A stretch of 64,000 nucleotides of DNA, taken from IMG/VR virus record IMGVR_UViG_3300035112_000003, positions 1 through 64,000 of that record; one strand, written 5' to 3'. Positions 338 to 49,503 of this stretch are shown piece by piece; within the stretch, counting starts at the first letter, position 1, and the number at the start of each line of letters is the position of its first letter. Below the pieces are notes generated by a model. It saw nothing but the letters and a program-made list of their open reading frames with translations, had not been told where the DNA came from and did no database searches. The DNA comes from a virus. Both the position numbers and the translations under genes were made by a program.

Positions 338-368
338 TTTGTGAATTGTGAATTACATCTTATATTTG
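338..368 (+). promoter_or_regulatory. Bacteroidota-type promoter P2
   Basis: A -33 TTTG (338-341), a 19-bp spacer and a -7 TATATTTG (361-368). The spacer carries the same GTGAATTGTGAATTAC (341-356) as P1, itself a tandem GTGAATT. The start is predicted near 375, giving a short leader before the ATG at 389. The copied spacer suggests both promoters bind one regulator. Confidence 0.85.
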
Positions 369-2579: not shown

Positions 2580-2810
2580 ATGCAGACAGAATTTACATGT
2601 GGGATATATACGGTTTCATATGTTGATGAATATGGGTGGCGGCTAACTGCTAATGGCCGAATTATTGGCGGTATTGATACGGACGGCGCACTCCTTTCCT
2701 TTAGTGCTGGAATGGCCATAGGAATAACCACAGACACATTGATTGAGATAGCTGTATTAATGAACAATATTAAACGACAATACAAGGCATTACAAACTAA
2801 TAAAATATAA
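2580..2810 (+). CDS. Hypothetical beta protein with hydrophobic C-terminus
   Basis: A 76-residue protein. The first half is beta-like (FTCGIYTVSYVDEYGWRLTANGRIIGG), the second a Gly/Ile-rich helix (MAIGITTDTLIEIAVLMNNIKRQ). It could be soluble or peripherally membrane-bound. No family recognised. Confidence 0.55.
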   Translation: MQTEFTCGIYTVSYVDEYGWRLTANGRIIGGIDTDGALLSFSAGMAIGITTDTLIEIAVLMNNIKRQYKALQTNKI

Positions 2811-2814
2811 CTCT

Positions 2815-3075
2815 ATGCATCATACAACCGGTAATAAATACAAAACTCCTGACAATCTAATTAACTTACTTAGCACGTTTCGATTGGATGGCAAAGACTA
2901 TTGCGTGTTAATTTCAATAGGGGACGATACAGACAAACATTATCGTGGTTACAATGGGAATAGATACGCAGAGCCAATTGAAGTCAATAACCCCTACAAT
3001 TTAACTGAAGATGAAATGAAGACACTTACAAAAGGGATGGGGTACGAACCAAATTCGTTAATAGTCATGATTTAG
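2815..3075 (+). CDS. Hypothetical early protein
   Basis: An 86-residue protein starting four bases after the previous stop. It has a strand pattern (FRLDGKDYCVLISIGDDTDKHY) followed by a segment that opens with NLTEDEMKTL. No catalytic motif seen. It is the last gene before the structured leader of the sigma factor gene. Confidence 0.55.
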   Translation: MHHTTGNKYKTPDNLINLLSTFRLDGKDYCVLISIGDDTDKHYRGYNGNRYAEPIEVNNPYNLTEDEMKTLTKGMGYEPNSLIVMI

Positions 3076-3152
3076 CTAACCTATCTAAAGACGGGAGCAA
3101 AACATAAAATAATTTCACAGGACGGTTTCAATTGGCAATGGTTGAGTTTTAG

Positions 3153-3190
3153 CCCTGAATAAGCCCACAGGGATAGGTTGGGCTTCTTTT
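3153..3190 (+). terminator. Attenuator-like terminator before the sigma factor gene
   Basis: AAGCCCA (3161-3167) pairs with TGGGCTT (3179-3185) and is followed by CTTTT, a plausible intrinsic terminator 13 bases before the sigma factor ATG. A second pairing, CCCTG (3153-3157) with CAGGG (3168-3172), interleaves with it, so the two are mutually exclusive or form a pseudoknot. This suggests regulated read-through into the sigma gene. Confidence 0.55.
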
Positions 3191-3202
3191 AAACCTTATT
3201 GT

Positions 3203-3694
3203 ATGATCCAAGTAGAATTTAAAACTATATTCCATGAGCTATTCCCACTTTTGTGGCGCTATAGTTGGAACATAACGAAAGATAAAGATGAAAGTGAGGA
3301 TATTGCCCTATTGAGCATGGTAAAAGTATGGGATAACATACAAAACTTTAATACTGTTTTGGAGCTAAAGAAATATGCCTATGTTGCTACTAAAAATGAC
3401 AGCCTAAATTATGTCAGTAAGGTAAAGGTTAAAAGCAAATACATTTCGCAGTTAAATGAAGGGATTGAAGATAAAGACGAAATAGAAGTACTAACCTATC
3501 GGGCCGCATTGATTGAGCGTATCTATGATAAAATAAACAGTCTGCCGCCTAAATGCAGACAAATATTAAACTTATGCTATTTACAAGGGATACCTAGGCA
3601 TAAAGTGGCTGCTGACCTAAACATCAGTATTGATACAGTTAACACACAATGCCGGATTGCAATAAATAAACTAAAATCATTCATAACCCCCTAA
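3203..3694 (+). CDS. ECF-type RNA polymerase sigma factor
   Basis: A 163-residue protein with the two-domain layout of extracytoplasmic-function sigma-70 factors. Region 2 is around residues 8-60, including the DESEDIALLSMVKVWDN motif that corresponds to the usual D-ED-QE-F---W core. Region 4 is around residues 110-160 (SLPPKCRQILNLCYLQGI, then the HTH HKVAADLNISIDTVNTQCR). Such proteins bind core RNA polymerase and recognise dedicated promoters, and Bacteroidota genomes carry many. No anti-sigma gene is next to it. It lies behind a possible attenuator and ahead of genes for exported proteins. It may turn on later phage genes or be a host-derived moron; the target promoter is not established. 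Confidence 0.85.
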   Translation: MIQVEFKTIFHELFPLLWRYSWNITKDKDESEDIALLSMVKVWDNIQNFNTVLELKKYAYVATKNDSLNYVSKVKVKSKYISQLNEGIEDKDEIEVLTYRAALIERIYDKINSLPPKCRQILNLCYLQGIPRHKVAADLNISIDTVNTQCRIAINKLKSFITP

Positions 3695-3703
3695 TGCTAA
3701 AAA

Positions 3704-3985
3704 ATGTCTAAATTCAATTATATACCCGGGACATGGGTTAAAATCGCCTACCATAAGATAGTTTACACTGGGTGTACTATTGGCTATGCTGCAACTATAG
3801 ATCGAAAGAGACTATACATTAATGATCCTAAATACACTCTTACCGTTATCCCTATTTCAGCAACATTCAAAATTAAATGGTTGTTTGCTGGCCATATGCT
3901 AGACCTTTGCCCATTACCTAATAAATATGAGCATTTAACCATTAATGACAATATTGACTACCAATCTTCTCACTCTTTAAATTAA
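3704..3985 (+). CDS. Hypothetical protein after the sigma factor
   Basis: A 93-residue beta-rich protein (PGTWVKIAYHKIVYTGCTIGYAA pattern, two further strands), starting nine bases after the sigma gene. No membrane helix or signal peptide. It is not recognisable as an anti-sigma factor, although its position makes that a possibility to test. Confidence 0.5.
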   Translation: MSKFNYIPGTWVKIAYHKIVYTGCTIGYAATIDRKRLYINDPKYTLTVIPISATFKIKWLFAGHMLDLCPLPNKYEHLTINDNIDYQSSHSLN

Positions 3986-5734: not shown

Positions 5735-5760
5735 AAGCCCGGCTATTCCTAGTCGGGCTT
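5735..5760. terminator. Bidirectional terminator closing the left early operon
   Basis: An 11-bp stem, AAGCCCGGCTA with TAGTCGGGCTT (one G-T pair), has a TTCC loop. ACTTTTTACT follows it on the plus strand. It lies between the converging plus and minus operons. Confidence 0.8.
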
Positions 5761-10473: not shown

Positions 10474-13400
10474 TTATCGAACCCACCAATTAGTGGCAGA
10501 CCCGCACTGGACTGCCTTCATAGTATATTGCCCTACTATTGTAAATGACGATGCCCCGTCTATAAGATCAGCAGTTGACCCATTTACTTGTACAGTGACA
10601 GTGTTCCCACTATTATCTACCCTTTTGAACATGTACTCAACTCCCATCCCTGAGCCGAATACAGTACTGGCAGCCGGAAGGGTCATGGTGATATTTCCAC
10701 CAGCAGCATTTATTACAAAGAAATATTCTTGATTATTTACTGTGGTATTTGTAACTACACTGTCTACCCGTAAGAAATTAGCGCGGCCAGATTGGAACCC
10801 ATTAACAAATGTACTATTCCCTGCTGTGTATAATGGGGCTGTAGTAGGTACACTTGTTCCCAACCCTGCATTATTATTAGTATCAATAATTAATCCGGCT
10901 CCTTTATCATACACAGTTGCGGTTGGGGTAAATCCTATTTCTAGTGAATTGCCAGCACCAATTAATGCGAAAGTATATGGATGCCCCGTACTACTTCCAT
11001 CCAATATGAAAGCATTCCCATTAATACGGTAATTGAACATAGAATTAAATGTCAGGCTATTGCTGCTTCCTGTTACTGTTCTATTGCCAGCCAATGTGCC
11101 ATCCCCTGAATATAACGTTGTCGCTGTGCTTGGAGTTTGCCATGTTACCGTCCCACTCCCGTTTGTTTGTAAAACTTGCCCCGATGAGCCATCTGAGGTT
11201 GGGAATGTAAATGCGTTATTGAATGTTACAGCCCCGTTACTCCCAGCTACTCGCAACCTAACCGGGGGTGGCCCCCCAGCACCTGCTGAAAGAGTTATAT
11301 CTGCATTTGCATCCAGCATAATAGCCATACCGCCAGTAGCATTAGAATAATATGCAGTACTATTCGATACGTAAGCCCCGTATGTCCCACCCGAACTCCC
11401 TTTTACTCGAATACCACCCGTTAAGCTTCCATCATTAACTGCTTGAAAACCTACTTGTCCACTAGCGTTAGAGTTATTAACTCTCACTTCACCGAATCCG
11501 GTAGTACTCGTTGTAACATGTAATTTTGTAGATGGGGTTCCTCCTATCCCTACATTCCCCGTATTTCTGCTTTGCAAATCAGAAGAACTTACTTTAGCCC
11601 ATGCGTTATCTTCGTACGCTCCTAATTGTTTGCAAATTATTTGAGTACCCCCATTTTTATTAAATAATGAATTATTAACACAACATCCAGCTTGGTCAAT
11701 TAAATAAGTGATATCCCCTATTCCTAAATTAGATACATCATCCAATACGTAGCTATAGTTATACCAGCCAGGAGCATCCCCATTCCAGACCTCTGACATG
11801 AAATTATCAATTTTAAAATAAGCATTCCCAAATGAATTACTTAACCCCATGATATTTCCAGATGGTACATATATAGAACTTATATTCCATTGTGCTAATA
11901 CTCTATTAGCGTGAACCGTTTCGATATTATGTAGAAAAACAAATGCTTTATCGCAAAAATATACCTCACATTGATCTATATTAGCATGATCAGACACGGC
12001 AATCCCATATTTAAACCCTGCCACATGCACTCGTTCAAGCGTTGTCATTGTTTCACTAAAAATCTTATTTGTTATAATTCCCGCAACTTCATTTGTTGGT
12101 CGAACGCTGGCCGAAGCACTCCCATCAATCGCTACCATTACATTGTTATAATGCGATGTATTACACCAATAACAATTTATACCCCCCATAGACGGGCCGC
12201 CAACATGAATATTTTTTGAAACTAAAATAGATATATTTTTAAACGTATATGTGGTGTAGTTTAGGCTATCGCTTGCATTTGCTCTGCTTTTTGTTGAAAA
12301 CAATGCAGGGTCATTACCTGTCCCGTTAATAAGTGAATATAATATAACACCCTTCCAGCTTACTATACTATCCATAGAAAGTAGATTAGGTGTCCATTCA
12401 GGCGGCGTTTCCCCTTCTATTATTATGTGGGTTCTGTTGTTGAATGAAGAATCAGATGCACCTGTAAAAAATGTATTTGGCAGGACGACTTGAGAATTCA
12501 CATTCACTCCATTCACATTAGTACGTAGCGCTCCCGCAAACATATAAACTCCGTTAGGTACCCATACCTTACCACCACCATAATGATGGCAGCTATCTAA
12601 TGCTTTTTGAAATGCAGATGTGTTATCTGTCCCCCACACAACAGTATCTGCACTTACTGTCGTGCTCGCAGCGTTCGTCAATGTAACAGTAGTTGAATTC
12701 GTAAACCCAGAAATTGTTGTAATTAAATCAACACCTGCTGACCCTGCATATGGCACTCTAATGGCCTTGCCAACGTCCGCTGATGTGAAATTTGCAGAAG
12801 CGCTAGTTAATGTGCTGGAACTGGCCGAAATGGCTGCATCAAACACTTTTCGACCATCTCCCTTTGCTCCATATATCGGGTCTGTTACATTATAAACTTT
12901 GGGAGTTAGGCTTAAATCAAATAGAGTTGAAATACTTGCAGTATCCACTTTAAATGTTAATGCATTGGAATTACTAGAGCTATCCACAATAATAGTATTG
13001 CTCCCAAATGCTGTCTTGAAATTGCCACTAGGAGTAGCAAGCCACCTAAATCCAGCCCCTATATTATTTATAGCTATAGACGGAATTTGGGTAAGATCAT
13101 ATTGCGTTGCAATAACCGATGTATCTACTCTTTGAGTGATATTATTAGCGGTTACCGTATGTAGTATGCCAAACCCTGGATTTAGTCTTTTTAATGTATC
13201 ATTGATGGAAAGCGTATCCCCGGCCCCTGATGCATTTACAAATTGTGGTGGAGTTCCATTGGCGAATGAAGTCGCTTGCCCTTTTGCATTAAATGTTATT
13301 TGACAATTCACACAAGTTCCTGCCAATACTTTATCTGCTAAAGAAATAGTACCTAATCCGTTATCGGAAAAATCACTTGAAGCAAATGTTGCCGCTCCTT

Positions 13401-14181
13401 TTGTTCCAGTTGTAGTTGCATTGTTTATCCCTATTTCACCAGTAGTTGAATTATATGTAATAGGGGATATATTAGAAATAAGACTTCTGACTTTCAAGTA
13501 AAAGTTAGGAATCATCCCGGTATCGGTAGTAGCTAATGTTCCATTCCCCCGTACGTACTGTGCGGTAGTTCCAGCGCCGGATACATTAAGCGTCCCATTT
13601 ACTGTTAGCGGGGAATTGGTTACCGTAAAAGCAGATGGCATAGATAACCCAACACTTGTTAACCCGGAGCCGCCACCACCTATTGCGGCCCTTATTGCTG
13701 CTGCCGTATCTTTTAATTGTGAAGTTGTAACAACATGATTTGATCCTAATGTATCAACGAACATCAATATTTTAGTCGCATTAGTAGAAAACGTCAACCC
13801 ATAATCATTTTGTATTCTCTTAATTGCATTATTAATATATAAAGAATCTCCGCTTACGCCTGCATTCGATAGTTGATTTTGCTTTAGGTTTATTCTATTG
13901 CTTAATGATATTGTATCTCTATCCAATAAACCACGAAACCAGCGCCTGTTACCTCCATAAAACCATAATGCCGTATCGCCCCCCTGAATACGTACAATTT
14001 GCGTTCCTGCGTAACGAGCATAAAATGTATCAAGCACAGGATTTACTAGGGGACTATCTAATATTATCCATGATGCTTCAGTATTACCTGTAAATATTCG
14101 TGACTTAAAAGTACTAGCCGGTAATTGCGCCTGTACAGTAAGCCCGATAAAAACTAATAAAACTATAAATATATTTCTCAT
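10474..14181 (-). CDS. Tail spike with pectate-lyase-like beta-helix and Sec-type leader
   Basis: A protein of about 1235 residues. The start at 14181 gives a Sec-like N-terminus MRNIFIVLLVFIGLTVQAQ; an ATG at 14190 adds three residues. From about residue 430, YNVTDPIYGAKGDG ... GTDNTSAFQKALD ... GGGKVWVPNGVY is the diagnostic opening of the Pectate_lyase_3 right-handed beta-helix used by phage depolymerase spikes. Flanking regions are Ser/Thr/Gly/Asn-rich repeats of fibre type (NVGIGGTPSTKLHV). The role is host-surface recognition and probably polysaccharide cleavage. The leader is unusual for a cytoplasmically assembled spike. Confidence 0.8.
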   Translation of the reverse strand: MRNIFIVLLVFIGLTVQAQLPASTFKSRIFTGNTEASWIILDSPLVNPVLDTFYARYAGTQIVRIQGGDTALWFYGGNRRWFRGLLDRDTISLSNRINLKQNQLSNAGVSGDSLYINNAIKRIQNDYGLTFSTNATKILMFVDTLGSNHVVTTSQLKDTAAAIRAAIGGGGSGLTSVGLSMPSAFTVTNSPLTVNGTLNVSGAGTTAQYVRGNGTLATTDTGMIPNFYLKVRSLISNISPITYNSTTGEIGINNATTTGTKGAATFASSDFSDNGLGTISLADKVLAGTCVNCQITFNAKGQATSFANGTPPQFVNASGAGDTLSINDTLKRLNPGFGILHTVTANNITQRVDTSVIATQYDLTQIPSIAINNIGAGFRWLATPSGNFKTAFGSNTIIVDSSSNSNALTFKVDTASISTLFDLSLTPKVYNVTDPIYGAKGDGRKVFDAAISASSSTLTSASANFTSADVGKAIRVPYAGSAGVDLITTISGFTNSTTVTLTNAASTTVSADTVVWGTDNTSAFQKALDSCHHYGGGKVWVPNGVYMFAGALRTNVNGVNVNSQVVLPNTFFTGASDSSFNNRTHIIIEGETPPEWTPNLLSMDSIVSWKGVILYSLINGTGNDPALFSTKSRANASDSLNYTTYTFKNISILVSKNIHVGGPSMGGINCYWCNTSHYNNVMVAIDGSASASVRPTNEVAGIITNKIFSETMTTLERVHVAGFKYGIAVSDHANIDQCEVYFCDKAFVFLHNIETVHANRVLAQWNISSIYVPSGNIMGLSNSFGNAYFKIDNFMSEVWNGDAPGWYNYSYVLDDVSNLGIGDITYLIDQAGCCVNNSLFNKNGGTQIICKQLGAYEDNAWAKVSSSDLQSRNTGNVGIGGTPSTKLHVTTSTTGFGEVRVNNSNASGQVGFQAVNDGSLTGGIRVKGSSGGTYGAYVSNSTAYYSNATGGMAIMLDANADITLSAGAGGPPPVRLRVAGSNGAVTFNNAFTFPTSDGSSGQVLQTNGSGTVTWQTPSTATTLYSGDGTLAGNRTVTGSSNSLTFNSMFNYRINGNAFILDGSSTGHPYTFALIGAGNSLEIGFTPTATVYDKGAGLIIDTNNNAGLGTSVPTTAPLYTAGNSTFVNGFQSGRANFLRVDSVVTNTTVNNQEYFFVINAAGGNITMTLPAASTVFGSGMGVEYMFKRVDNSGNTVTVQVNGSTADLIDGASSFTIVGQYTMKAVQCGSATNWWVR

Positions 14182-14182
14182 A

Positions 14183-14758
14183 CTATACATTTATAAGTTG
14201 AACCATATGTATCATATACAATTGACTTGTCCCAACTCCATTGCTAAATACGATTACTATATTATTTGCATTATATGTAACAGTATATTCTTGTTGCGAA
14301 ACATCACTACCATAGGGCAATTCTGTTCCATCTAAAGTAATTTCAACGCTAGGATTTACCACGCCTGCATAATTCAGCGTCAAGCTAGTTTGTCCGGCTA
14401 TCATTGGAGCCCCTACATCTCCTACCCGGAATTGCACAAAAGGAGTTGCGATTGTCACGTTATTTCCAGTTGAAGGATTAACAATATTGCCTGTACTTCC
14501 AGAATCTATTACATTTTGCGCAGCATGAATATATGGATTGCATAGTGAATACATATAATTTGCCATCTTAGGTAAGATGCTGGCACCAGAATCAATATCA
14601 TATTGCCACTGTACAGATTCTTTTACTATAAACAAAAGAGATGATTGATTAGGCCGATTGCCACCGCCTTGTAATAATAATTTTTTAGAATTACCATCAG
14701 CAGCAAGATATTGGCATATTTTAGCTATAGTCAAATATGTAGTTACTGGTACTGCCAT
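14183..14758 (-). CDS. Tail-associated protein
   Basis: A 191-residue protein with an N-terminal helical part (TYLTIAKICQYLAADGNSKKLLLQGG) and a C-terminal beta domain (TSLTLNYAGVVNPSVEITLDGTEL ... YTVTYNANNIVIVFSNG). It is joined directly to the tail-spike gene and the preceding 176-residue gene. It could be a tail collar or spike adaptor. The family is not recognised. Confidence 0.6.
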   Translation of the reverse strand: MAVPVTTYLTIAKICQYLAADGNSKKLLLQGGGNRPNQSSLLFIVKESVQWQYDIDSGASILPKMANYMYSLCNPYIHAAQNVIDSGSTGNIVNPSTGNNVTIATPFVQFRVGDVGAPMIAGQTSLTLNYAGVVNPSVEITLDGTELPYGSDVSQQEYTVTYNANNIVIVFSNGVGTSQLYMIHMVQLINV

Positions 14759-16932: not shown

Positions 16933-19900
16933 TTAATTTTTTTGATGTGGATTAGTTCTTGTTACTCTTGTTGGTCTTTCTCTTGATACTGTTGATCTAG
17001 CAGGCTTATTGGATGCGCTTTCCCCTGATTTCATTAAGCTATAATCCTCTCCTATTCTAACCCCTGTACCACCTGACATGACACCTACAAATACCCCTTT
17101 TAAGATTTGCTCTATTTGAGGCTTTGACATTCCTCGTTGTTCCATTTGAACAGTTACATCTTTTATTGCTTCTGCCACAGGAATCGGCGTTTGTTGATTT
17201 AAAATATATTCCTTCCATGTTAATTGATGCCCAAATGGCCCCGGCTTATCAGAAGAAAACGGGAGAGTATTGCCTCCATAGTCATGATGGGTAGCAATAT
17301 CGGCGGCTGTACTAGCAAATGGTGATAGTTTACCTCGCAAATATTTACTAAATGAACTATACAATAAGTCTGTCCTAGTTTTACCTTTTAAAGACGTTTC
17401 GGATTCTACCGAAATGGCCACCAATTTGCTTAAAAATCCCAATGCCGAAGCCATCCCTCCCGTTAAATCTATCGTTCTGTCTCCGAATTTAAATTTAAGC
17501 CAATCAGAACTTTTGGGGTCAGTAAAATTCACACTCTGTTTTGATCCTGTTGCCATTAATAATCCCTGATTTGCAGCCAATGCCGCAAAATAAGTGGCTA
17601 TAGCCTCACCACTTCTTTTAGCTACAATTTTAGCCGCTGCCTTTTCTGCTGCCGTTGCATTCTTCCAATTAGTAAAGGTTGCGATTGCCTTCACCGGCTG
17701 GGTTATAAGGCGCGACCATCTGGATGCCTCTAGCCGGGGGGCAAAAAACGCTGTACCAATAGCTTCAGGAACTGGTATCTTACTAGTACCTGTTGCATGA
17801 TTTACGATAGTGGCTATTTCTTTCAATACTTCCGGATCGGCCTTTTCTACAGCAGAAAGCCTATTGTATTCATCCTTCGCCATCTCTAATCTCATTACTT
17901 TCAATGCATTAAACCCACGATCGCCAGCCGCTCCAAGCCTCCCTAGCATTTTATCAAAGGTCTGATAATCATCGAATTTTTCAGCGGGATCAACTGCAAG
18001 GCCGGCCCTCTTCCATTTTGCAAATTCCGGATCATTTACTAAATCCTGCATCGCCTTTTCGTATTGGGCAGCCTTCCCGAATGCAAAATTGAATTGTTTA
18101 AAGAATGAGGGCCAATATGATTTCCATGCTGTGGGCCTAAATATATTCATACCGGCATGCGTAATACCTCCAACTGTACCATGCCCAAATGTCTTCAATC
18201 TGAAAAATAGATGTGGGACAAACTTAAGCGCCTTTACCACCCTTGGAGTATTTGCAGCTTTCACCCATGCCTTTGCTTGTTGTATGGCTTGTCGCTGATG
18301 ATATTGCTGCGTGTATAATTCGTCGGAAATAACTTTCGTGCCCTTGGGTTGTGTTATGGCATTCCTAACTTGATCTGGGTTTAATCCCAAGTCCTTAGAT
18401 ACCCCATATACCATTTCATTAAAATCTTTCCCCTTATTGATATATTCTGTCTTTGCATAATCCCATATATCTCTAGCGTCTTCTGTTGTAAATTTGTTGT
18501 CCTTTTTATCAGCAAAGCGAGTTAATAAATCATTTTCGTTTTTGAAATATTTGTTATAATCATTTTCTACGTCACGTTGCTTATCTTCTGATAATGATTT
18601 ATACCAATCACTTTGTTTAATATGCGATAACCCATCAGATATAGCCTGCACAACTGTGCCGCCTGCCTCTACCGTTTTGGCCATTATCTCTAACGCACTA
18701 TCCCAAACTAATGACCCCGGCGTTGCGGCTTGGAAACTTCCCGGCTTTCTAGTTTTCCCTTCCCTTAGAAGATCAGCAAATTTATCAGCTTTTTCTTTTA
18801 TTGATTTCCCCGGTTCTTTTTCACCCGTTGACTTATCTATTGCTTCTGTAAGTTTCTTTTTCAGCCCTTCCACTTCTTTAGTCAATGACCCTACCTTATC
18901 TGCCAGTTCTTTAGCACGACCTTCTTGAGCTTTGGACATAGGCTGTTCATTCCGTTGCTCAAAGTATCTCCTTATCCCAGTAAAAGAACCAGTATCTATA
19001 TCTGTTACTCCTTGTTGTTCACGACCCATACCGCCCCATACTGTCTGCATGGGTTTCACTACCTCGTTATACCATTTGCTTTCGGCTGCTTTTGCCGCTT
19101 TATCCTCAGCACTTCCAGCCCCAAACTCATCAGCGGCTTTATTTGTTTCTCTTACAAGCCTATTATATTCTGCCCTTACTACGCTAATATCATCTACGCC
19201 TATTTTGCCATGATTTTTGAAATCACTTGCTACCTGATGTGGGTCTACGCCTTGTGCTATTAGTTCTTTACCCCTCTCAATGTATTGTTCTGGCTCTAAG
19301 ACTTCACCCCTAACCGGTGCAGATTCCCCGGTATCAAATGCCCTTTGTGAACGATATTCATGGGCAATACCAATATCCTCCCCAAATGGCAAATCCATGT
19401 TCCCCGGATATGGCGCTACCCCTTCTTTACCCGTATCTTTACCTTCTTCTTGGGCGCGTGTTCCGGCAGTGACTTCCCCTTGCTGGCTTGGTTCCATTCC
19501 TCCACGTTGACCCCCTTCTGCTCCAATTCCTTCTTGTGGATGTTGAAGAACGCCGCCTGTGCTTGGCTCTTGTATGGCATGAGTTAATTCTTTATTGTTT
19601 AAGAAAATATTCGTTGTTTCATCTGTCCATTTACCATCTGTTTTGGATAACGCGTCAAGCGCTCTCATTACCTTACTATGGCTTACTACATGAGTGTCTT
19701 CAGGCAGTGACTTAACATATTCATACGCTTTCTCCATTCTTGCCTTAAAGCTCTCAGGTGATTCAGAGCCTTCTGGCCTATACTTTCCTTCAAACCATTC
19801 TTTCTCTTTAAAGGTTCCTTCCGGCTTCCCTTCATCACTACCAATATTAGCCGTATTCAGTAATTCATTCCTTTCAATGGGCACTTCTTTGCCTGTGATC

Positions 19901-22260
19901 TTTTTAGCTTCCTTCGCTGCTTCTTCAGCGGTTTGTAACCCCCTTTCTACTTCACTTGTTATGATTTTGGCTTTATTATTATCGGCGATATACTGTCCTA
20001 ATTTATGCGCCTCTTGCTTCCCTTCTTCAGTTAATGGGGATGGCCCTATGCCATTTTCTTTACCGGCAGCAGTTTTTGTATCTTCCCCGTGTTCGCTTAC
20101 TTCTACATGGCCTACTCGTTCAGCCGATACTTTCCCTGCGCTAACTTCACCGGGCATAATCACCGATACATTCTTTGTTGACTTTATTTCTTTAGGTTGT
20201 TCTCTTGGTGAAATAGTTACAGTTTCGGGGTGTTTTATTTCTCCCGGTTGAATTACTGATACTTTAGGTTGTTCTTTAGGATATAGCTCCTTAGCTTTAT
20301 TTACAATATTTTCTCCAAAAGTTGCTATTGCTATATCTGCCGTATTGGGATCGTGCGCCTTATCCGCTATAGCTTTAAATAGATTCTTTAAATCATTCTC
20401 ACTTGCATCTCGCAAAATATGAATATCCATATTTTTAGATTCCTTATCTACCAATTGCTGCAATTCTCCACGCCCCTTCCCGTTAGATAGGTTTACTATT
20501 TCTTCATTTAGCGTCTTAATTTGTTCTTTTATGTCTGGATGGTATGCCCTATCCGTAGTTTCAAGACTAGCCTCTAATTCGTTTCTTTTTTTAATTTTAT
20601 CCTGAACTTTTAACCGATCAGATTCAGGCACATTGGGCTTTATTGAATTATCAATATCAGCATGTTCTTTTATTGCTTTTTGTGCATTATTGGCTTGTGC
20701 TTCTGTTATATGTCCAGATTGTTTAAGATTATTTAACTCACCTTCTACTGCCTCTTTAGGAACATTCTTAAACGCCTGAAGTATTTGATTATATGTTTTT
20801 GGTTGTAGTGCTTCTGGGAATTTAGCAAGCATCGTCATGCCTACAGTCATTTTCAAGCCACCTATCAATTGCTCCTTCAGTCCTTCGCTTGCATCAACTG
20901 GCAGCCCTTCTTGTTGTGCCATTAAATTCTTTACTAACTGCCCACTTGCACCAACTGCACCAACGCCTAATCCTTCCAATGTTTTCTTTACAGTTTCTTG
21001 CCCAACTTGCTTCAGTGCATTACCCAATGACTTTTGCAATAAACCTCTATTCAACCCGGTTGGCTGCAATCCAACTTTAGCCCCCAATACGCCCATCGCT
21101 GCACCGCTTAACGCATCAATGTTAGCCTCATTATTAGTGAAGTATACAGCCTCTTGCAGCACTTGACTATCCGACCAATCTGGATGTTGTTTTTTTATTG
21201 CTGCATAATTTTGCGGCAACGCAGCCCCAAATGTTAGCTTGTACATTTCTGGGGCGGTAATAGCTGTAGCAGCAGCAACGCCAGCTTCAGGGCCAGCGGC
21301 AATGCCGGCAGCAGCGCCACCAATAATCGGCTTTAAGGGTTGCCCTCCTGCCATGCGCCCCATTTCTGCTAATGGTTTGGAAAGCCATCCTTCTTCCGCA
21401 ACTGATACAGCCTGATCAGGATCGTATTTTAAGCGCTTATTAATCAGGTCGAGCATGGCTTTTTCATCCCCGGATTTGTAAACACCATAATCATCATACG
21501 CCTGAACTTTTTCTTTATATCCGGTTGCCAAACTACCTAAAAATCCTTCTGGCTTTACTAATTGGCCGTTTACGATGTCATAATCATATTCTCCTTTATT
21601 TATCTTATCTATATTAGAAGCTATTTTACTTTCTTTTTCGGGATTATTTTGACGATCCAACCGGTATATATCGGCCTTCAATAAATTGGCTTCAGTAGGA
21701 TTTGTTTTCGCTAAGTCTTTTGCTTTTTGCTCTAACCCGCGTCTCATTAAGACAGTGTTATTAGGCATTTCACTTTTGAAACTTTCTACCTCTACTGGGC
21801 TTACATATACATCTTGCTTGTCTTTATGTGCTAATTGTTGTGCTTGAAAATTAACTGGGCCAGCCTCCCTTGGGTTTACTGCTAAGTTCTGGCTTGTCAC
21901 TCTTCCTAATAAATCCTTTTTATGCTCATATAAAAGGTTACGAACACTATTATCAATATCATTAAGATGCGTTTTTATTCTTTCACTCGATTCTGCTGTT
22001 TTTGTATTATGATCATTAACGACATTTGTAGCCACAATGGGTTGCGCTGTCTGCCCCATACTTAACCAATCCGTCATTGGTTTAAAGGCAGCCTGTTGAG
22101 GTTCAGGCTTAGGCTGTTGCTGTGACTGTAACGAACGCAACTTAGCCTCCAATCCTAAAGGATCAGCTTTAGACTTGACTTGTTGTAATTTTTTCTCCAA
22201 TCCTAATGGATCAGGATCACCCGTCTGTACTTGGTTATATGTTTCTACTTCTTCTGCCAT
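16933..22260 (-). CDS. Giant internal virion/ejection protein with histidine-phosphatase-like domain
   Basis: A 1775-residue protein. The N-terminus has two copies of a DPLGLE-x-KL motif (17-44). A Gly/Ala-rich hydrophobic region lies at about 310-350, and charged coiled coils at about 500-660. Residues about 716-896 read as a branch-1 histidine phosphatase: SEHGED with His724, PLTEEGKQEAHKLG, SEVERGLQTA with Arg773 and VVSHSKVMRAL with His861. The usual first Arg of RHG is Glu723 here. The C-terminal half (about 1350-1700) is helical with Ala-rich hydrophobic stretches. Size and position match the ejected cargo proteins of crAss-like podoviruses. Confidence 0.75.
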   Translation of the reverse strand: MAEEVETYNQVQTGDPDPLGLEKKLQQVKSKADPLGLEAKLRSLQSQQQPKPEPQQAAFKPMTDWLSMGQTAQPIVATNVVNDHNTKTAESSERIKTHLNDIDNSVRNLLYEHKKDLLGRVTSQNLAVNPREAGPVNFQAQQLAHKDKQDVYVSPVEVESFKSEMPNNTVLMRRGLEQKAKDLAKTNPTEANLLKADIYRLDRQNNPEKESKIASNIDKINKGEYDYDIVNGQLVKPEGFLGSLATGYKEKVQAYDDYGVYKSGDEKAMLDLINKRLKYDPDQAVSVAEEGWLSKPLAEMGRMAGGQPLKPIIGGAAAGIAAGPEAGVAAATAITAPEMYKLTFGAALPQNYAAIKKQHPDWSDSQVLQEAVYFTNNEANIDALSGAAMGVLGAKVGLQPTGLNRGLLQKSLGNALKQVGQETVKKTLEGLGVGAVGASGQLVKNLMAQQEGLPVDASEGLKEQLIGGLKMTVGMTMLAKFPEALQPKTYNQILQAFKNVPKEAVEGELNNLKQSGHITEAQANNAQKAIKEHADIDNSIKPNVPESDRLKVQDKIKKRNELEASLETTDRAYHPDIKEQIKTLNEEIVNLSNGKGRGELQQLVDKESKNMDIHILRDASENDLKNLFKAIADKAHDPNTADIAIATFGENIVNKAKELYPKEQPKVSVIQPGEIKHPETVTISPREQPKEIKSTKNVSVIMPGEVSAGKVSAERVGHVEVSEHGEDTKTAAGKENGIGPSPLTEEGKQEAHKLGQYIADNNKAKIITSEVERGLQTAEEAAKEAKKITGKEVPIERNELLNTANIGSDEGKPEGTFKEKEWFEGKYRPEGSESPESFKARMEKAYEYVKSLPEDTHVVSHSKVMRALDALSKTDGKWTDETTNIFLNNKELTHAIQEPSTGGVLQHPQEGIGAEGGQRGGMEPSQQGEVTAGTRAQEEGKDTGKEGVAPYPGNMDLPFGEDIGIAHEYRSQRAFDTGESAPVRGEVLEPEQYIERGKELIAQGVDPHQVASDFKNHGKIGVDDISVVRAEYNRLVRETNKAADEFGAGSAEDKAAKAAESKWYNEVVKPMQTVWGGMGREQQGVTDIDTGSFTGIRRYFEQRNEQPMSKAQEGRAKELADKVGSLTKEVEGLKKKLTEAIDKSTGEKEPGKSIKEKADKFADLLREGKTRKPGSFQAATPGSLVWDSALEIMAKTVEAGGTVVQAISDGLSHIKQSDWYKSLSEDKQRDVENDYNKYFKNENDLLTRFADKKDNKFTTEDARDIWDYAKTEYINKGKDFNEMVYGVSKDLGLNPDQVRNAITQPKGTKVISDELYTQQYHQRQAIQQAKAWVKAANTPRVVKALKFVPHLFFRLKTFGHGTVGGITHAGMNIFRPTAWKSYWPSFFKQFNFAFGKAAQYEKAMQDLVNDPEFAKWKRAGLAVDPAEKFDDYQTFDKMLGRLGAAGDRGFNALKVMRLEMAKDEYNRLSAVEKADPEVLKEIATIVNHATGTSKIPVPEAIGTAFFAPRLEASRWSRLITQPVKAIATFTNWKNATAAEKAAAKIVAKRSGEAIATYFAALAANQGLLMATGSKQSVNFTDPKSSDWLKFKFGDRTIDLTGGMASALGFLSKLVAISVESETSLKGKTRTDLLYSSFSKYLRGKLSPFASTAADIATHHDYGGNTLPFSSDKPGPFGHQLTWKEYILNQQTPIPVAEAIKDVTVQMEQRGMSKPQIEQILKGVFVGVMSGGTGVRIGEDYSLMKSGESASNKPARSTVSRERPTRVTRTNPHQKN

Positions 22261-30936: not shown

Positions 30937-31848
30937 TTACGTTGCTAAGTGATCTAATCGGCCTTTAAATTCTTTCCCTTCGCTTGAATTGGTTAGTGCA
31001 AGTTGTGTCAAATACTGGATTGGGTTCTCTCCTTTTGGCATATTACAAGCTACCGCGCCGTTGCTTCCCCAATATACTCTGCCATCATTTCTTGAAATAT
31101 CCAGCTTCCCGTCAATGATTACTTGCCTAATCTTATAATGAACATCTACTTCTTTTGAATCAAAACTTTTTTCGAACGCTGCCGGATTGCGTTTTGCTAT
31201 CAACAGGTATTCCATTCTCAATGAATCATCCGACTTAGGCGCACCTGTTATATCGTGCGTTAATTTGCCGCCCAAATAGAATAAATGCTTTTTCATTTTC
31301 TCTACTGGCTGTGTTTGGGCCTTCATTAACATCTGGATTTCTTTCATTTCCGATGCCAGCCTTTCTTTATCAGCGGCTTCTGGATCGTATAAAAAGAACT
31401 CTGTTTTGCTTGTCTTAGTCCTATTGGGATTTAACCGGTTATGACAGCATAATTCCATAAACTCCAACTTCGCCTTATCATGCTTTTGAACAAACATGAA
31501 CCTTGATCCTTTCGGCCATTCCAGAAATTCCATTAGTTTCCCCGCTTTATTTTCTGGAATATCCTTTTGATCTTTCGCCCAGATAGAAGGAACGCCTTTC
31601 AGCAATCTGATCATCTGCAATCCCTGTTCTGGTTCTTTCGGATTAATAACATAGTCTATTGGCTGAATATAAACGCCACCCACATTTTTCTTTGCCAGCT
31701 TAAAACATACCAACCCGTTTTCGCTATCATTTACTCCATTTATGGAGCCTTTAATTTTCGCTTCAGGCACATAGTCTACATCAGTAGGTTTTACTTTTTC
31801 TTCTGGTTCTCCATTCAGGGAGAAATTAATGTCTTTTAAAGATGCCAT
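30937..31848 (-). CDS. Capsid-associated or auxiliary protein
   Basis: A 303-residue protein, mixed alpha-beta and charged, with no known motif: an N-terminal acidic/basic linker (NGEPEEKVKPTDVDYVPEAKIKG), then LVCFKLAKKNVGGVYIQPIDYV. It is encoded directly after the capsid gene and behind a terminator, so it is probably made in smaller amounts. It may be an auxiliary capsid or head-closure protein. Confidence 0.55.
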   Translation of the reverse strand: MASLKDINFSLNGEPEEKVKPTDVDYVPEAKIKGSINGVNDSENGLVCFKLAKKNVGGVYIQPIDYVINPKEPEQGLQMIRLLKGVPSIWAKDQKDIPENKAGKLMEFLEWPKGSRFMFVQKHDKAKLEFMELCCHNRLNPNRTKTSKTEFFLYDPEAADKERLASEMKEIQMLMKAQTQPVEKMKKHLFYLGGKLTHDITGAPKSDDSLRMEYLLIAKRNPAAFEKSFDSKEVDVHYKIRQVIIDGKLDISRNDGRVYWGSNGAVACNMPKGENPIQYLTQLALTNSSEGKEFKGRLDHLAT

Positions 31849-31911
31849 GGTTTTTAATTTTAATGTGGCGCATTTTTAAGGGAGATCACCCACGCCAAAA
31901 CATTATTAAAT

Positions 31912-31935
31912 AGAGCCCCCAATTAAGGGGGCTCT
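31912..31935. terminator. Terminator after the capsid gene
   Basis: A 9-bp perfect stem, AGAGCCCCC with GGGGGCTCT, loop AATTAA, followed on the minus strand by ATTTAATAAT. It lies 11 bases past the capsid stop codon and would lower expression of all genes downstream of the capsid gene. Confidence 0.85.
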
Positions 31936-31945
31936 TTATTACTAT

Positions 31946-33385
31946 TTATGCACTTACAATGTTTACAAATTGATTGGCTGCTACATTTCTTATTGATCTG
32001 TAGGTTGCCATCTCAATATTATCCCGCAGCGTACCATCTGTAGGATTGGTAGAACCACCACCCCAGTTCCATACACGAATACCATTACCTATTGAACCGC
32101 CTTTAGGAGGTTGTTGGCTCATGACGGTAATGTTTTTGTAAACGCGAGAGGGGGTTTTTGCATCAGGTGTTTCACCCATTGGACATAAGAAACCATAGTT
32201 ACGGTAATAATCCGTAGCAGGTGTTAACCCGGTATATGCTTCGGTGTTGAAGTTCCGGTATTTCCCGATCTGGAAACGGTACCCGTCAATATCAATCACC
32301 TTGAAGCCATAGGCTACGCTTGCATCTTCTGATTTTTCCCCTTGTCCCCAAACAAATGCACCGGCTGGGAAGGTTTGGAAAATACCATCAGAGAAATCCT
32401 GGCGTTGGAAAATATCAGCCATCCACATATTCTGTTTTACACAGCCATTTACATCCATAACGCGGGTCAGCGTATGCAGGAATGGGATATCAAGATTGCC
32501 CGGCGTATAAGTCACTGTTTCTCCATCGGCTGCAATTTTAGGTAATAAGCCTTGGCAACCCACAGAAGTATCGGTGCCTAATCCGGTATTATCTACAGAA
32601 TCCCCGAACATCAATTTACGCTCTACGTTATTTACGAAACGTTGTGATGCTTTTACAAGTCCCAAATAAGTGAAATAAGATACGCCAGCCTGAGCCGCAC
32701 CGCCGATAGGAGAACCGCTTACCCCACTATCAATGAACACATCGGTCATTTCACCAAGATCGGTAGCTGACCATGTATCATGAATTTCAGTGATGTTGTT
32801 ATCGTATCTCTGAGTAAGATATACTTGCGGGATGTTTGTTCCAGATGCTTCACCCACATCCACACGACCACCGAATATAATTACATCCGTAGCCAGCAAT
32901 GTAGACGCTTGACCAGCGGAAGTTAGTGATTGAGTGGATTTTTTCGGGCGAAGATTGAAGGTAAATGCATTCGCAGTTTCAACGATTGGCCCAAGTATTT
33001 CACCGCCTACGCCGGTAGAAGCAATATAAATTGTTTCTCCAACACGTAAGGGTGATTGAGTACCTGAATTATAGTGGAATGCCGAAGCAAGCGTACATGC
33101 CACGGTAGCGCCAGCGGTAGCACCAGAAGCATTAGATGCCAACTGAATACCGATCTGAAGTTTACCACGGCTTTCAAACCAGAAGAAGTTCCGGTTCATT
33201 ACCTGCTCCATGCCGCCATAAGTGGCTAACCACCACGTCCAGTTTTCTGCACCGTATTTTTCAACGAATTGTTTATAGTATTGGGGCGTAAGTAATTGTA
33301 GATTAGATACCAACGCCCGATTCGCGCCGCCAGACACCGATATATTGCCTGGCTGTAATATGTTACTGGTAGGAATTCCTGCCAT
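31946..33385 (-). CDS. Major capsid protein (HK97 fold, crAss-like)
   Basis: A 479-residue protein. The N-terminal segment (GANRALVSNLQLLTPQYYKQFVEKYGAENWTWWLATYGGMEQVMNR) and the long mixed alpha-beta body with a hairpin-rich centre match my memory of crAss-like major capsid proteins, and the size fits. It lies after a coiled-coil scaffold-like protein and before a strong terminator, the expected arrangement for the most abundant virion protein. Confidence 0.75.
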   Translation of the reverse strand: MAGIPTSNILQPGNISVSGGANRALVSNLQLLTPQYYKQFVEKYGAENWTWWLATYGGMEQVMNRNFFWFESRGKLQIGIQLASNASGATAGATVACTLASAFHYNSGTQSPLRVGETIYIASTGVGGEILGPIVETANAFTFNLRPKKSTQSLTSAGQASTLLATDVIIFGGRVDVGEASGTNIPQVYLTQRYDNNITEIHDTWSATDLGEMTDVFIDSGVSGSPIGGAAQAGVSYFTYLGLVKASQRFVNNVERKLMFGDSVDNTGLGTDTSVGCQGLLPKIAADGETVTYTPGNLDIPFLHTLTRVMDVNGCVKQNMWMADIFQRQDFSDGIFQTFPAGAFVWGQGEKSEDASVAYGFKVIDIDGYRFQIGKYRNFNTEAYTGLTPATDYYRNYGFLCPMGETPDAKTPSRVYKNITVMSQQPPKGGSIGNGIRVWNWGGGSTNPTDGTLRDNIEMATYRSIRNVAANQFVNIVSA

Positions 33386-33412: not shown

Positions 33413-34603
33413 TTACATGTTCCAAATGCTTTCTGCCAGTGCTTGTGATTCGTTTTTAGGCGCTGCTTTTGTTGGATCGGTCGGCCCAAGTGTTGGGCTT
33501 ACCCCTTTCAGGTTAATGTTGTTCTGATTTTTAATAAGGTGCGCTTTCATTTGAGCGGCAGCCTCATTTGCGATTTTTTGATGAATTTTATCCCGGTTGC
33601 TCAATGAATACAAATCCTCTTGCATCAATGTTACTTTCGGGTTTCCTTGTTCATCAAACCATCTTTTTGCAAAAAAATCAGTTACATTAAAATCCTGCAA
33701 TGATTGTTTTGAAGCATTCAATTCTTCTGGATTAATCCCGTAACTAATAGGCAATTGAACATCTCCGTCTTTTGCTGTTACGTTAAACCCTTTGAAGTTT
33801 TGATAATTGCTTTCCACTGCACCTAAATAAGCCTGTCGGCCAGCTTCCATAGCCGCCAATTCTTCTGGCGTTGGGCCTGTTTGCTGCACTTGTGGCTTTT
33901 GTATTTCTGGTAGAACTATTTGCGATTTGTATTGTGATAGTTCAGGTTTTGCCAGCTTTGCGTCAATGATCATATCCTGCTGCTTTTCCTGAACTTGTTG
34001 CTTCCATTGATCCATTACAGCGGCATATTCTTCATCAGTTTGAAGGTCTGTTTGCTGTGGTTGTGGAGGCATTGAATATTGCCGGGTAAAGAGCCGGTCA
34101 ATTTCTTGTGTAGAAAGGTCTTTATATTTGAATTGGAGATTTGTCCGAATGATTTCGGCGGCCTGATTTGCATCGGCTACATCATACTTTTCAAGCCTGT
34201 CAAGCTGCCTTTTTTGATTTATATAATTGTAGATTTCATCCTCTTTGGAATCATCATACACCCATTTTTGTTCTTGTGGTTGAACCGGTTCTTTGGGCTT
34301 ATTGTACTCTTCCCATTTACTTTTAAATTCACTCGCATCTAAGCCGAACTCTCTTTTGAAATAATCGTTCACATCAAGCACTTCTTCAGCATCTGCGTGT
34401 TCTGCTATGGCCGCCTGTGTTTCAGTAGCGGTTTGTGCTGTTTCTTGTGTCTGCGCCTGCTCTGGATTCTGATAAGGCGTAGTTTGCATACCCCATAAAG
34501 AATCACCTACTATTTGGCTTACTTGGGGGGTGGCTGTTACAACCTGTTCCTGTGGCTCAGGTTGCGCGGTTGCGGTCTGTTCTAAAATTGCTGTTTCTGA
34601 CAT
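33413..34603 (-). CDS. Scaffold-like protein
   Basis: A 396-residue protein, extremely rich in Gln, Glu and Ala, with long coiled-coil segments and a Thr/Gln/Ala-rich N-terminus. No globular domain is evident. Position directly upstream of the capsid gene and this composition fit a capsid scaffold or an internal core protein. It has its own promoter/operator-like leader. Confidence 0.65.
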   Translation of the reverse strand: MSETAILEQTATAQPEPQEQVVTATPQVSQIVGDSLWGMQTTPYQNPEQAQTQETAQTATETQAAIAEHADAEEVLDVNDYFKREFGLDASEFKSKWEEYNKPKEPVQPQEQKWVYDDSKEDEIYNYINQKRQLDRLEKYDVADANQAAEIIRTNLQFKYKDLSTQEIDRLFTRQYSMPPQPQQTDLQTDEEYAAVMDQWKQQVQEKQQDMIIDAKLAKPELSQYKSQIVLPEIQKPQVQQTGPTPEELAAMEAGRQAYLGAVESNYQNFKGFNVTAKDGDVQLPISYGINPEELNASKQSLQDFNVTDFFAKRWFDEQGNPKVTLMQEDLYSLSNRDKIHQKIANEAAAQMKAHLIKNQNNINLKGVSPTLGPTDPTKAAPKNESQALAESIWNM

Positions 34604-34624: not shown

Positions 34625-34647
34625 GCTACAACGTTGTAGCAAATCTA
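34625..34647 (-). promoter_or_regulatory. Minus-strand -7 box with overlapping 16-bp palindrome
   Basis: TAGATTTG (34647-34640) fits the -7 consensus. A perfect palindrome GCTACAACGTTGTAGC (34640-34625) starts at its last base and covers the expected start site, 21 bases before the scaffold ATG. No good -33 is seen. It looks like an operator at a promoter. Confidence 0.5.
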
Positions 34648-37761: not shown

Positions 37762-37793
37762 CAAATGTAAGAATTTTTTAATTGACCTACAAC
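37762..37793 (-). promoter_or_regulatory. Promoter before the portal gene
   Basis: On the minus strand a -33 GTTG (37793-37790), a 20-bp spacer and -7 TACATTTG (37769-37762). The start is predicted near 37755, 11 bases before the portal ATG. It lies between the TerL stop and the portal gene, so the capsid genes can be transcribed apart from terminase. Confidence 0.65.
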
Positions 37794-37800
37794 GATTTAG

Positions 37801-44104: not shown

Positions 44105-44857
44105 TTATTCTCGTTGTTTAGCCCATTGTTGGATTAATGCAGGCAGCGGTTCTCCTATTGGAATAAGATCATTATCCGAAAACCACAGCTTCGGGTCAAA
44201 TGTTTCGCATTGGTTTAGCTTTTGATCATAGTCTGCGAATTGAAATACCTCTTTCTGCATGTGAATGATCTTAGCCCGATGCGCTTTCTTTTCCCGGACA
44301 AAACCCATGTGATACATTCGTATATGTTCCACGAACGCATCAGAAGCAAAACAATCCAGATTTTCCGCATCATCATATGCTCGATACATTGACTTTGCTA
44401 GTCGTACAACTTGGGGGCTACATGGCATCCTTTCCAAAGGAACATTTAGCTTTGTATAAGGGGTGTCCCATAAATTAAACCGACTGATTAAATACCCTTC
44501 AGCGCCGCCATTTATAGCCCTTCTTATCCATTCATATGATCTCTCATGCGTCAGTTCATCGGCTTGCTGGTAGTATATCCATTCCGTGTTTACTTGATCT
44601 ATTGCCTTATTTGTAAAATAAGATAGTTTCTCTTTTCCTTGTTGCGATTTCCACTCTTCATTATCACACAGGATAACCCTGGTTTGCCTACCCTGGAATG
44701 TCTTTATAAGCTCACTCGTTCCATCCGTTGACCCAGCATCAAGAACTATCACTTCATCACAAAATTCCTTCAATGAGGCCACAGATTCAGCTAAACAATA
44801 ATCTTGCGAAATAGCATTGTATGCGAATGTAACACCAGTTAATGCCTTACTCATCAT
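44105..44857 (-). CDS. Glycosyltransferase family 2
   Basis: A 250-residue protein with a GT-A fold: GVTFAYNAISQDYCLAESVASL, then DEVIVLDAGSTDGTSELI (the acceptor/donor region) and an EWIYYQQADE segment for the DxD-like metal site. It uses a nucleotide sugar. Overlaps the upstream gene by 11 bases. Part of the glycan island. Confidence 0.85.
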   Translation of the reverse strand: MMSKALTGVTFAYNAISQDYCLAESVASLKEFCDEVIVLDAGSTDGTSELIKTFQGRQTRVILCDNEEWKSQQGKEKLSYFTNKAIDQVNTEWIYYQQADELTHERSYEWIRRAINGGAEGYLISRFNLWDTPYTKLNVPLERMPCSPQVVRLAKSMYRAYDDAENLDCFASDAFVEHIRMYHMGFVREKKAHRAKIIHMQKEVFQFADYDQKLNQCETFDPKLWFSDNDLIPIGEPLPALIQQWAKQRE

Positions 44858-45095
44858 CTTCCTCCTTTTTATCGAAGCCTAATAATTTAATCAATGCTAT
44901 TCGTTGTTCTTGCCTACAACATGATTTAGCAATTTCAAGCAATAGTTTTTGATAGCCTTCATCTGTCGGATATGGATTAAGACTTGTTTCAACCTTGATA
45001 AGTCCTTCCAGATAGTTATAATACCTGTTTTGCCGTTCGCATTCCCATACATCAGAAATAGGCATATTCATTCTATAGGCTGGCCCTATTATCAT
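44847..45095 (-). CDS. Small helical protein in the glycan island
   Basis: An 82-residue helical protein (NRYYNYLEGLIKVETSLN ... LLLEIAKSCCRQEQRIALIKLLGFDKKEEDDE). It overlaps the glycosyltransferase gene, which implies coupled expression. No family recognised. Confidence 0.5.
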   Translation of the reverse strand: MIIGPAYRMNMPISDVWECERQNRYYNYLEGLIKVETSLNPYPTDEGYQKLLLEIAKSCCRQEQRIALIKLLGFDKKEEDDE

Positions 45096-45098
45096 ATA

Positions 45099-45761
45099 TT
45101 ATTTCTTTTTAAGTAAAGCGACGTAAAAACCTCGCCAATACATATCATTTAAATGCTGATCTTCGGTATATGGTTCTGGGTTTAGAAGCTCTTCATGAAA
45201 CAATATCTCGCATCCACTATCAATAAGTCCATCTATTGTTCCGCGCTTTACATCTCCATACTGCCAATCATCAACGCAAACGATAAATTCATTAGCCATT
45301 GAGGGCAGAAAATGCGTCATGGCTTTACGCTGGGCCTCATACCCATGATCTGCGTCAAAGCAATACAAATCCACTTCATCGGCAAAGTTAGGCGGCAGGT
45401 CAAATGTTTCGGATACTTCCCCCAGCAACACCGTCTCTGTTCCATCAATACACTTCATGGCATTTTGGATAAATTGCTCTTCGACATTTTCGCCCGTTAT
45501 TTTGTCAGAAGCAAAACTGTCACCCCAATAAGCTATTTCAATATTTGGATTATTTCTTAACACAGAACAGAATATGCCGCCTTTATGGGTTCCATGCTCC
45601 ATGTAACGCATTGATAATGAGCCTAAATTATTCATTAGATGGCGAAGTTTGATCGAAGAAAGTGCCGGTACATCCCATGCTACTTGATCCATTTTAGATT
45701 GATGGTTCTTTGCCTTTTCAATGGCATCTTTAATTGCTTCTATTTTTTCTTCAGTTGTCAT
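45099..45761 (-). CDS. Class I SAM methyltransferase-like protein
   Basis: A 220-residue protein. It has a LSMRYMEHGTHKGGIFCSVL segment (motif I region; GTHKGG in place of GxGxG), DEVDLYCFDADHGYEAQRKAMTHF (motif near D-A-D-H) and EFIVCVDDWQYG (end strand). This matches Methyltransf_24-type enzymes found near sugar pathways. Paired with the next gene; ATGA overlap at 45758-45761. Confidence 0.7.
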   Translation of the reverse strand: MTTEEKIEAIKDAIEKAKNHQSKMDQVAWDVPALSSIKLRHLMNNLGSLSMRYMEHGTHKGGIFCSVLRNNPNIEIAYWGDSFASDKITGENVEEQFIQNAMKCIDGTETVLLGEVSETFDLPPNFADEVDLYCFDADHGYEAQRKAMTHFLPSMANEFIVCVDDWQYGDVKRGTIDGLIDSGCEILFHEELLNPEPYTEDQHLNDMYWRGFYVALLKKK

Positions 45762-46381
45762 TGATAATTTATTTTATATAAACGGAGATTGTTCATGTCT
45801 TTTACTAGTTCTAGTTCTGGGAAATGCGTAAGGGCCTTTTTAGTATCCCCATATCTCTCATAAAAATCATCGTAAAGGATATAGGGGATTTTCATTTTTA
45901 TGCATAGTTCAGTATCATCAATAATGCTTTTTTCGTCGTGAGCGCCGTCAATAAATGCGAGATCGAAGAATCGGTGCATAGGATATGAATTAGCTGTATA
46001 GTCGTTGACATCATCTCTCCACTGAAATTCAAATCTATCTTGGTATGTACGTCTTAAGTATTCTGCACCTAGCAGTGTTTCATCCTTTTGGCTAATATCA
46101 CAACTCAATACATACCCATCAAATAAATTTAGCCACATGGAAACAGAATGTCCCATATTAAACCCAATCTCTAATATACACTCCGGGTTTACTATCTCAA
46201 TAGCTTCCCTGAAATGCCTTAATATGTGTGGGCCGCTATGGTATGGGATTGGTACGCCAAATTTATCCAACCCATCACCATTCTTTCCTGCCCTGGTTGG
46301 AAGCCCTTCAGTTATTTTATTATAGAAGGCCCAATCTTCTTCTGAGGCATACAGTAGTTCTTCATCTGTTAGTTCTGTCAT
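45758..46381 (-). CDS. Class I SAM methyltransferase-like protein
   Basis: A 207-residue protein: ECILEIGFNMGHSVSMWL (motif I with IGFNMGHS), CDISQKDETL (motif II), DLAFIDGAHDEKSIIDDTEL (metal-type IDGAHDE loop) and PYILYDDFYERYG. The IDGAHD loop is shared by cephalosporin-hydroxylase and Methyltransf_24-type enzymes that act on sugars. Possible O-methylation of a glycan; substrate unknown. Confidence 0.75.
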   Translation of the reverse strand: MTELTDEELLYASEEDWAFYNKITEGLPTRAGKNGDGLDKFGVPIPYHSGPHILRHFREAIEIVNPECILEIGFNMGHSVSMWLNLFDGYVLSCDISQKDETLLGAEYLRRTYQDRFEFQWRDDVNDYTANSYPMHRFFDLAFIDGAHDEKSIIDDTELCIKMKIPYILYDDFYERYGDTKKALTHFPELELVKDMNNLRLYKINYQ

Positions 46382-46390
46382 ATTAACAAT

Positions 46391-49290: not shown

Positions 49291-49503
49291 TTATTTATTA
49301 AATAACTCATTATAGCATACCCCTGGCATTAAAGCTCTATCGTAGTATGTTTTTACTAAAGGCTCATTAAAGAATATTCTTTCTTCTACTTGCTCTACAG
49401 TGATCCCATGCTTTGAAGCGATTATTCTCTTTAAGGCTACCTTCCAGTCTTCAAATGACCGGCTTGATTTAGCGGTTGGATGTTGTGGTATATTCTCTTC
49501 CAT
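49291..49503 (-). CDS. Hypothetical protein
   Basis: A 70-residue protein, mostly helical (SFEDWKVALKRIIASKHGITVEQVEERIFFNEPLVKTYYDR). Overlaps the upstream gene by 35 bases. No family recognised. Confidence 0.5.
   Translation of the reverse strand: MEENIPQHPTAKSSRSFEDWKVALKRIIASKHGITVEQVEERIFFNEPLVKTYYDRALMPGVCYNELFNK

Follow-up and report, generated by a model that had tools for sequence, protein, structure and literature searches.

A divergent ECF sigma factor gene behind a conserved, covarying leader element in the operon of a Bacteroidota phage

The virus record IMGVR_UViG_3300035112_000003 (64.8 kb, linear) comes from a soil phage of Bacteroidota, and the 64,000 nucleotides from its first position onward, hereafter the window, were analysed. 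Close to one end of the window lies a plus-strand operon that we infer to be early from its housekeeping-type promoter and its many small accessory genes. Within this operon, a gene for a sigma factor follows a leader element that recurs in two related phages, G004 (IMGVR 3300048917_000233) and G009 (IMGVR 3300037869_000003). The features of the locus are as follows.

339-368, plus strand: housekeeping-type promoter (TTG-N19-TAnnTTTG) of the presumed early operon, 21 nt before the gene at 389-574, identified by box enrichment
2815-3075, plus strand: gene for an 86-aa protein 5' of the element, with orthologues at the corresponding place in G004 and G009
3106-3191, plus strand: conserved leader element (model R1), a single copy per genome, its operon slot shared by three phages
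3153-3157, plus strand: 5' arm of stem 1 (CCCTG), pairing with 3168-3172, invariant except for the terminal pair in G004, which precludes a covariation test
3161-3167, plus strand: 5' arm of stem 2, the terminator stem (AAGCCCA), pairing with 3179-3185, with 4 of 7 pairs double-changed and 100% of cells paired
3168-3172, plus strand: 3' arm of stem 1 (CAGGG), from the sequence and the three-phage alignment
3179-3185, plus strand: 3' arm of stem 2 (TGGGCTT), from the sequence and the three-phage alignment
3186-3190, plus strand: U-run CTTTT (TATTTTT in G004, TATTTTTT in G009), from the sequence
3203-3694, plus strand: ECF sigma factor of 163 aa, region 2 at residues 10-73 and region 4 at residues 105-158, from ORF calls, Pfam, NCBIfam and a structure model
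3704-3985, plus strand: gene for a 93-aa protein after the sigma gene; G004 and G009 have a similar gene after the slot (translations compared)
5735-5760, plus strand: strong intrinsic terminator that closes the operon (-18 kcal/mol, z -5.7)

An earlier note on this DNA had recognized sigma-70 region 2 and region 4 motifs in the 163-residue protein, which is encoded from an ATG start codon, and profile searches bear this out. The protein exceeds the Pfam cut-offs for Sigma70_r2, i.e., region 2 (24.3 bits against 24), Sigma70_r4 (27.1 against 24.1) and Sigma70_r4_2, the region 4 helix-turn-helix (32.4 against 25.7), as well as that of the NCBIfam ECF superfamily profile TIGR02937 (72.9 against 42.9), and it is short, consisting of regions 2 and 4 only. 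The best NCBIfam profile is TIGR02985 (Sig70_bacteroi1, Bacteroidota ECF; 2e-32, residues 5-159), which marks the closest subfamily and not formal membership, the score of 112.7 bits being under the curated cut-off of 126.4. The closest solved proteins by sequence are ECF sigma factors, and a predicted structure of moderate confidence (pLDDT 72, pTM 0.45) also matches such proteins, including region 4 of E. coli sigmaE at a TM of 0.86 of the target. On these domain assignments, the product of the open reading frame at 3203-3694 is a genuine ECF sigma-70 factor.

The two stems that the earlier note had placed in the leader do pair at 3153-3157 with 3168-3172 and at 3161-3167 with 3179-3185. The stems had been taken for alternatives that form a switch; however, they use different bases and hence are compatible. 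Because they have no base in common and their arms are interleaved, the arrangement is that of an H-type pseudoknot (5 bp, an AAT loop, 7 bp, no junction, a 6 nt loop and then CTTTT) and not a pair of mutually exclusive folds. The U-run is separated from the ATG of the sigma gene by 12 nt, too little to accommodate a separate promoter, and expression of the sigma factor from an upstream promoter would therefore require read-through of the terminator-like stem. Thus, the part of the earlier read-through proposal that survives is the terminator-like stem with its U-run directly ahead of the gene, whereas the two-pairing switch is lost.

RNA folding, which the earlier note had proposed, gave a mixed picture: in each of the three phages, the core folds at minimum energy with stem 2 as its principal helix (-9.7 kcal/mol in the window and -9.8 and -12.6 in the other two), but the leader is no more stable than shuffled sequence (z = 0.18; core z = -0.12). 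A pseudoknot of similar size is expected about 0.55 times per random window; pseudoknots with a T-rich tail were found in 0 of 20 simulated windows, a T-rich tail being defined as 5 or more T of 8, with 4 or 5 in the observed tail depending on the assumed stem end. Given that both stability and frequency are ordinary, the single sequence is no proof of the structure, and it is the comparison of the three phages that establishes stem 2. A pairing of AGCCC (3151-3155) with GGGCT (3180-3184) that the long fold preferred was dropped because it is impossible in G004 and G009.

In G004 and G009, the element occupies the identical operon slot, between the 86-aa gene (followed in these two phages by one small extra gene) and a conserved gene of 74-93 aa, and no convincing additional copies are present inside any of the three phages. 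The arms of stem 2 are AAGCCCA/TGGGCTT in the window, GAGCTGC/GTAGCTC in G004 and GAGCTGC/GCAGCTC in G009, so that, across three sequences all of which come from related phages, 4 of the 7 pairs are altered on both sides yet still pair, compared with 0 in slid controls. RNAalifold recovers this stem unaided. By this covariation, stem 2 is a conserved pairing under selection. Except for the terminal pair in G004, stem 1 and the AAT loop do not vary among the three phages, and the combination suggests an H-type pseudoknot, with stem 2 indicated by covariation and stem 1 by invariance only. The stems are preceded by a conserved 5' block, GG..AATGGTT..GCCCTGAAT.

Stem 2 has the composition of an intrinsic terminator, namely, a G+C-rich hairpin of 7 bp with a U-run of 4-6 directly after it. 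The U-run of the window is short, the loop of 11-13 nt (11 in the window) is long for a terminator, the standard terminator scan did not list the stem, and the core, at -9.7 kcal/mol, is weaker than two ordinary terminators (-18 and -19.5 kcal/mol). It is possible, if doubtful, that the element does no more than terminate the upstream unit of small genes, like any intergenic terminator, that the sigma gene and the later genes have their own promoter, and that the interleaved arm is coincidental. The invariance of stem 1 and the shuffle-like stability agree with this explanation, and the covariation is accounted for by stem 2 and the U-run alone; nevertheless, the distance to the ATG is too tight for a downstream promoter, the loop is unusually long, and stem 1 with the AAT loop is conserved in 3 of 3 phages while the letters of stem 2 drift.

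The element is followed directly by the sigma gene in the window; in G004 its place is taken by a reading frame of 128 aa, and in G009 by a gene for 73 aa. Contrary to the earlier assumption, the leader thus is not dedicated to the sigma factor, inasmuch as its homologs precede unrelated small genes, and with no sigma gene behind the element in two of the three phages, any regulation would concern the operon rather than the sigma factor. By the same token, the gene at 3704-3985, counterparts of which occur in G004 and G009 without this sigma factor, does not appear to be a sigma-specific anti-sigma partner. A separate conserved terminator (AGAGCCCCC..GGGGGCTCT) is located on the minus strand at 31849-31950, followed by a conserved block (GGCG..GGGTG..CTCCCTTAAA..CGCC) ahead of the gene at 30937-31848; this block is common to the window, G003 and G004 and may be another structured leader.

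The earlier note compared the phage with the crAss-like phages and assigned the sigma factor a role in late transcription. The terminase is 24-27% identical to those of Elemovirus and Cellulophaga phages, phi13:2 (Pachyviridae) among them, and all its matches belong to these phages, one Maribacter phage and one unclassified record, whereas the sole crAss sign among the window proteins is a sub-threshold match to the crAss muzzle domain. Judging by the terminase sequence, Elemovirus and Pachyviridae are the closest relatives with a classification, which makes the comparison with crAss-like phages inappropriate. Neither the closest terminase relatives nor a phage-encoded RNA polymerase place the phage in Crassvirales, although a divergent polymerase might be present. 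As noted earlier, no phage RNA polymerase is visible: the DxDGD-type motif is absent from all six frames of the window and none of its largest proteins has a Pfam polymerase match. A search for T7-type RNA polymerase was empty, with the controls equally silent. Other minus-strand genes of the window include one for a 1775-aa protein (16933-22260) in which residues 724-868 make up a histidine phosphatase domain (Pfam His_Phos_1, 3.8e-20), unusual within such a large phage protein, one for a 1238-aa protein with a pectin-lyase-like stretch (10474-14190; PHROG 32881), likely a tail spike, and, where the packaging region gives way to the replication region (44105-48168), genes that are glycosyltransferase-like and methyltransferase-like.

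In housekeeping promoters of Bacteroidota, a TTG box and a TAnnTTTG box are separated by about 20 nt. In the window, six TAnnTTTG boxes stand 15-40 nt ahead of a start codon, where chance would give 1.25 (p 0.0025); they precede the presumed early operon (368), the plus-strand operon at 56309, the genes at 49503 and 51171, the portal gene (37762) and the gene at 34603. The promoters of the last two are on the minus strand.

37762-37794, minus strand: portal-gene promoter CGTTGTAG-N-TTACATTTG, conserved in G001-G004 and G009
34625-34647, minus strand: -7 box TAGATTTG of the promoter of gene 33413-34603, then the palindrome GCTACAACGTTGTAGC; similar in G003 and G004

Across the relatives, the portal promoter reads CGTTGTAG-N-TTA(C/T)ATTTG and is retained both in G001 and G002, in which no sigma gene was detected, and in G003, G004 and G009, the sigma factors of which are non-orthologous. 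A housekeeping-like promoter that is kept with or without the sigma factor argues against a need for this factor in the transcription of structural genes. A role in which the protein would steer host polymerase to the late promoters of structural genes, thereby substituting for a phage polymerase, is accordingly improbable, the failure to detect such a polymerase notwithstanding; in addition, the search for dyad promoter motifs upstream of genes yielded nothing above shuffles, with no second promoter class and no common novel motif that would serve as a sigma target. It is nevertheless conceivable that the ECF sigma factor serves late genes from promoters that escaped recognition here. The palindrome GCTACAACGTTGTAGC at 34625-34640 is perfect and lies directly after the -7 box, and its half, CGTTGTAG, occupies the -33 region of the portal promoter (37787-37794, minus strand). 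Because this half-site is common to both promoters and conserved in relatives, the two structural promoters may share a regulator.

The leader element is a covarying RNA that is new to Rfam and was not found beyond the three phages. An Rfam scan of 2800-3800 yielded one chance match, to a snoRNA model far under threshold and inside the sigma gene. The leader pattern matched 13 stretches of viral contigs, of which those of G004 and G009 are real and the others lack the stems, and four stretches of genome contigs, all chance matches without stem 2; GenBank phages showed short chance similarities only. The RNA model has no accepted copy in 296 Bacteroidota genomes, the one match, antisense inside a coding gene, having been rejected. 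This distribution and the empty Rfam result speak against a riboswitch-like pseudoknot that senses a ligand or protein, or a translation-coupled attenuator that uses the short ORF at 3138, and simple relatedness could account for the conservation; the conserved 5' block and the compact H-type geometry are features that such a device might have, but we consider it quite improbable. The ORF in question (3138-3152, plus strand), located before stem 1, encodes MVEF in the window and MVNGPE in G004 and G009, and might be a leader peptide or a chance occurrence.

The sigma genes turn over among these phages. The window sigma factor is highly divergent, with at most about 35% identity to any sequenced relative and no close homologs in viral contigs or in 84,980 genomes. 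G004 and G009 encode a different ECF sigma factor of 168 aa, 22-24% identical to that of the window. Its gene lies at the distal end of the operon that carries the element, and a strong ordinary terminator precedes the ATG by about 22 nt. Hence a recurrent layout in three phages, built from unrelated parts: an ECF sigma gene just 3' of a terminator-like hairpin in a presumed early operon. Further ECF sigma factors, about 22-25% identical to that of the window, are encoded, one each, elsewhere in G004 and in G003 and G005, and in reading these sequences no hairpin was seen directly 5' of their genes. No sigma gene was found in G001, G002, G006, G007 and G008, with the proviso that G007 and G008 are fragmentary and that completeness is not assured for any virus record, nor was an ECF sigma gene found in 50 kb each of Elemovirus and the Pachyviridae phage phi13:2. 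By these comparisons, the sigma gene is accessory and exchangeable, since it is missing or different in close relatives. A non-functional remnant of a captured host ECF sigma factor, which the divergence and the lack of close homologs in viral and genome collections might suggest, is highly unlikely, given that the gene is full-length and in frame with both domains over the cut-off and that relatives independently retain other intact ECF sigma genes.

The explanation that we favor, with about even confidence, is that an accessory, swappable ECF sigma factor is expressed from an early promoter of housekeeping type, by transcripts that read through a leaky terminator, and acts on host genes or a minor set of phage promoters. 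With a housekeeping-type promoter at its head, the operon could be transcribed immediately upon infection, host polymerase starting at 339-368. The polymerase would then meet the element at 3106-3191, where stem 2 and the U-run would act as a weak intrinsic terminator (3153-3190), and pairing with the upstream CCCTG arm in the pseudoknot would probably strengthen, time or tune termination. Only the read-through fraction would reach the sigma gene and those that follow, so that sigma expression would be lowered or delayed. The sigma factor, which within this explanation we take with moderate confidence to be a subunit for the host RNA polymerase, would compete for that enzyme and direct it to promoters other than the conserved ones of the structural genes, most likely ECF-type promoters of the host, or else a small phage set. 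A bolder version, unlikely but worth stating, is that a new pseudoknot-terminator RNA gates the distal part of the early operon and that the sigma factor in its slot seizes host ECF promoters, e.g., those of surface receptor genes, and not late genes. Independently of this version, the phages are an example of a lineage that gains, loses and swaps ECF sigma factors while its structural promoters stay housekeeping-like, so that a phage-borne sigma gene is not in itself the mark of a late-gene switch.

Among known systems, H-type pseudoknot attenuators include the preQ1-I riboswitches. The element would share with these two interleaved stems (5 and 7 bp in the window) and a U-run after the second, and differs in its dissimilar sequence, the lack of an Rfam match and the putative status of stem 1. 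The sigma factor resembles the Bacteroidota ECF sigma factors of TIGR02985 in size, two-domain layout and best profile match; unlike these, it is phage-encoded, scores under the subfamily cut-off and has no apparent dedicated anti-sigma partner, the neighboring gene being present without it in related phages. Phage-encoded sigma factors are known, for example, the sporulation-type sigma factors of Bacillota phages (PMC9429907), a study the main text of which does not mention Bacteroidota. The sigma factor of the window differs from these in being of the ECF type and in coming from a Bacteroidota phage near Elemovirus and Pachyviridae, but is comparable as a host-type sigma factor on a phage that is accessory rather than core and likely works with the host core polymerase.
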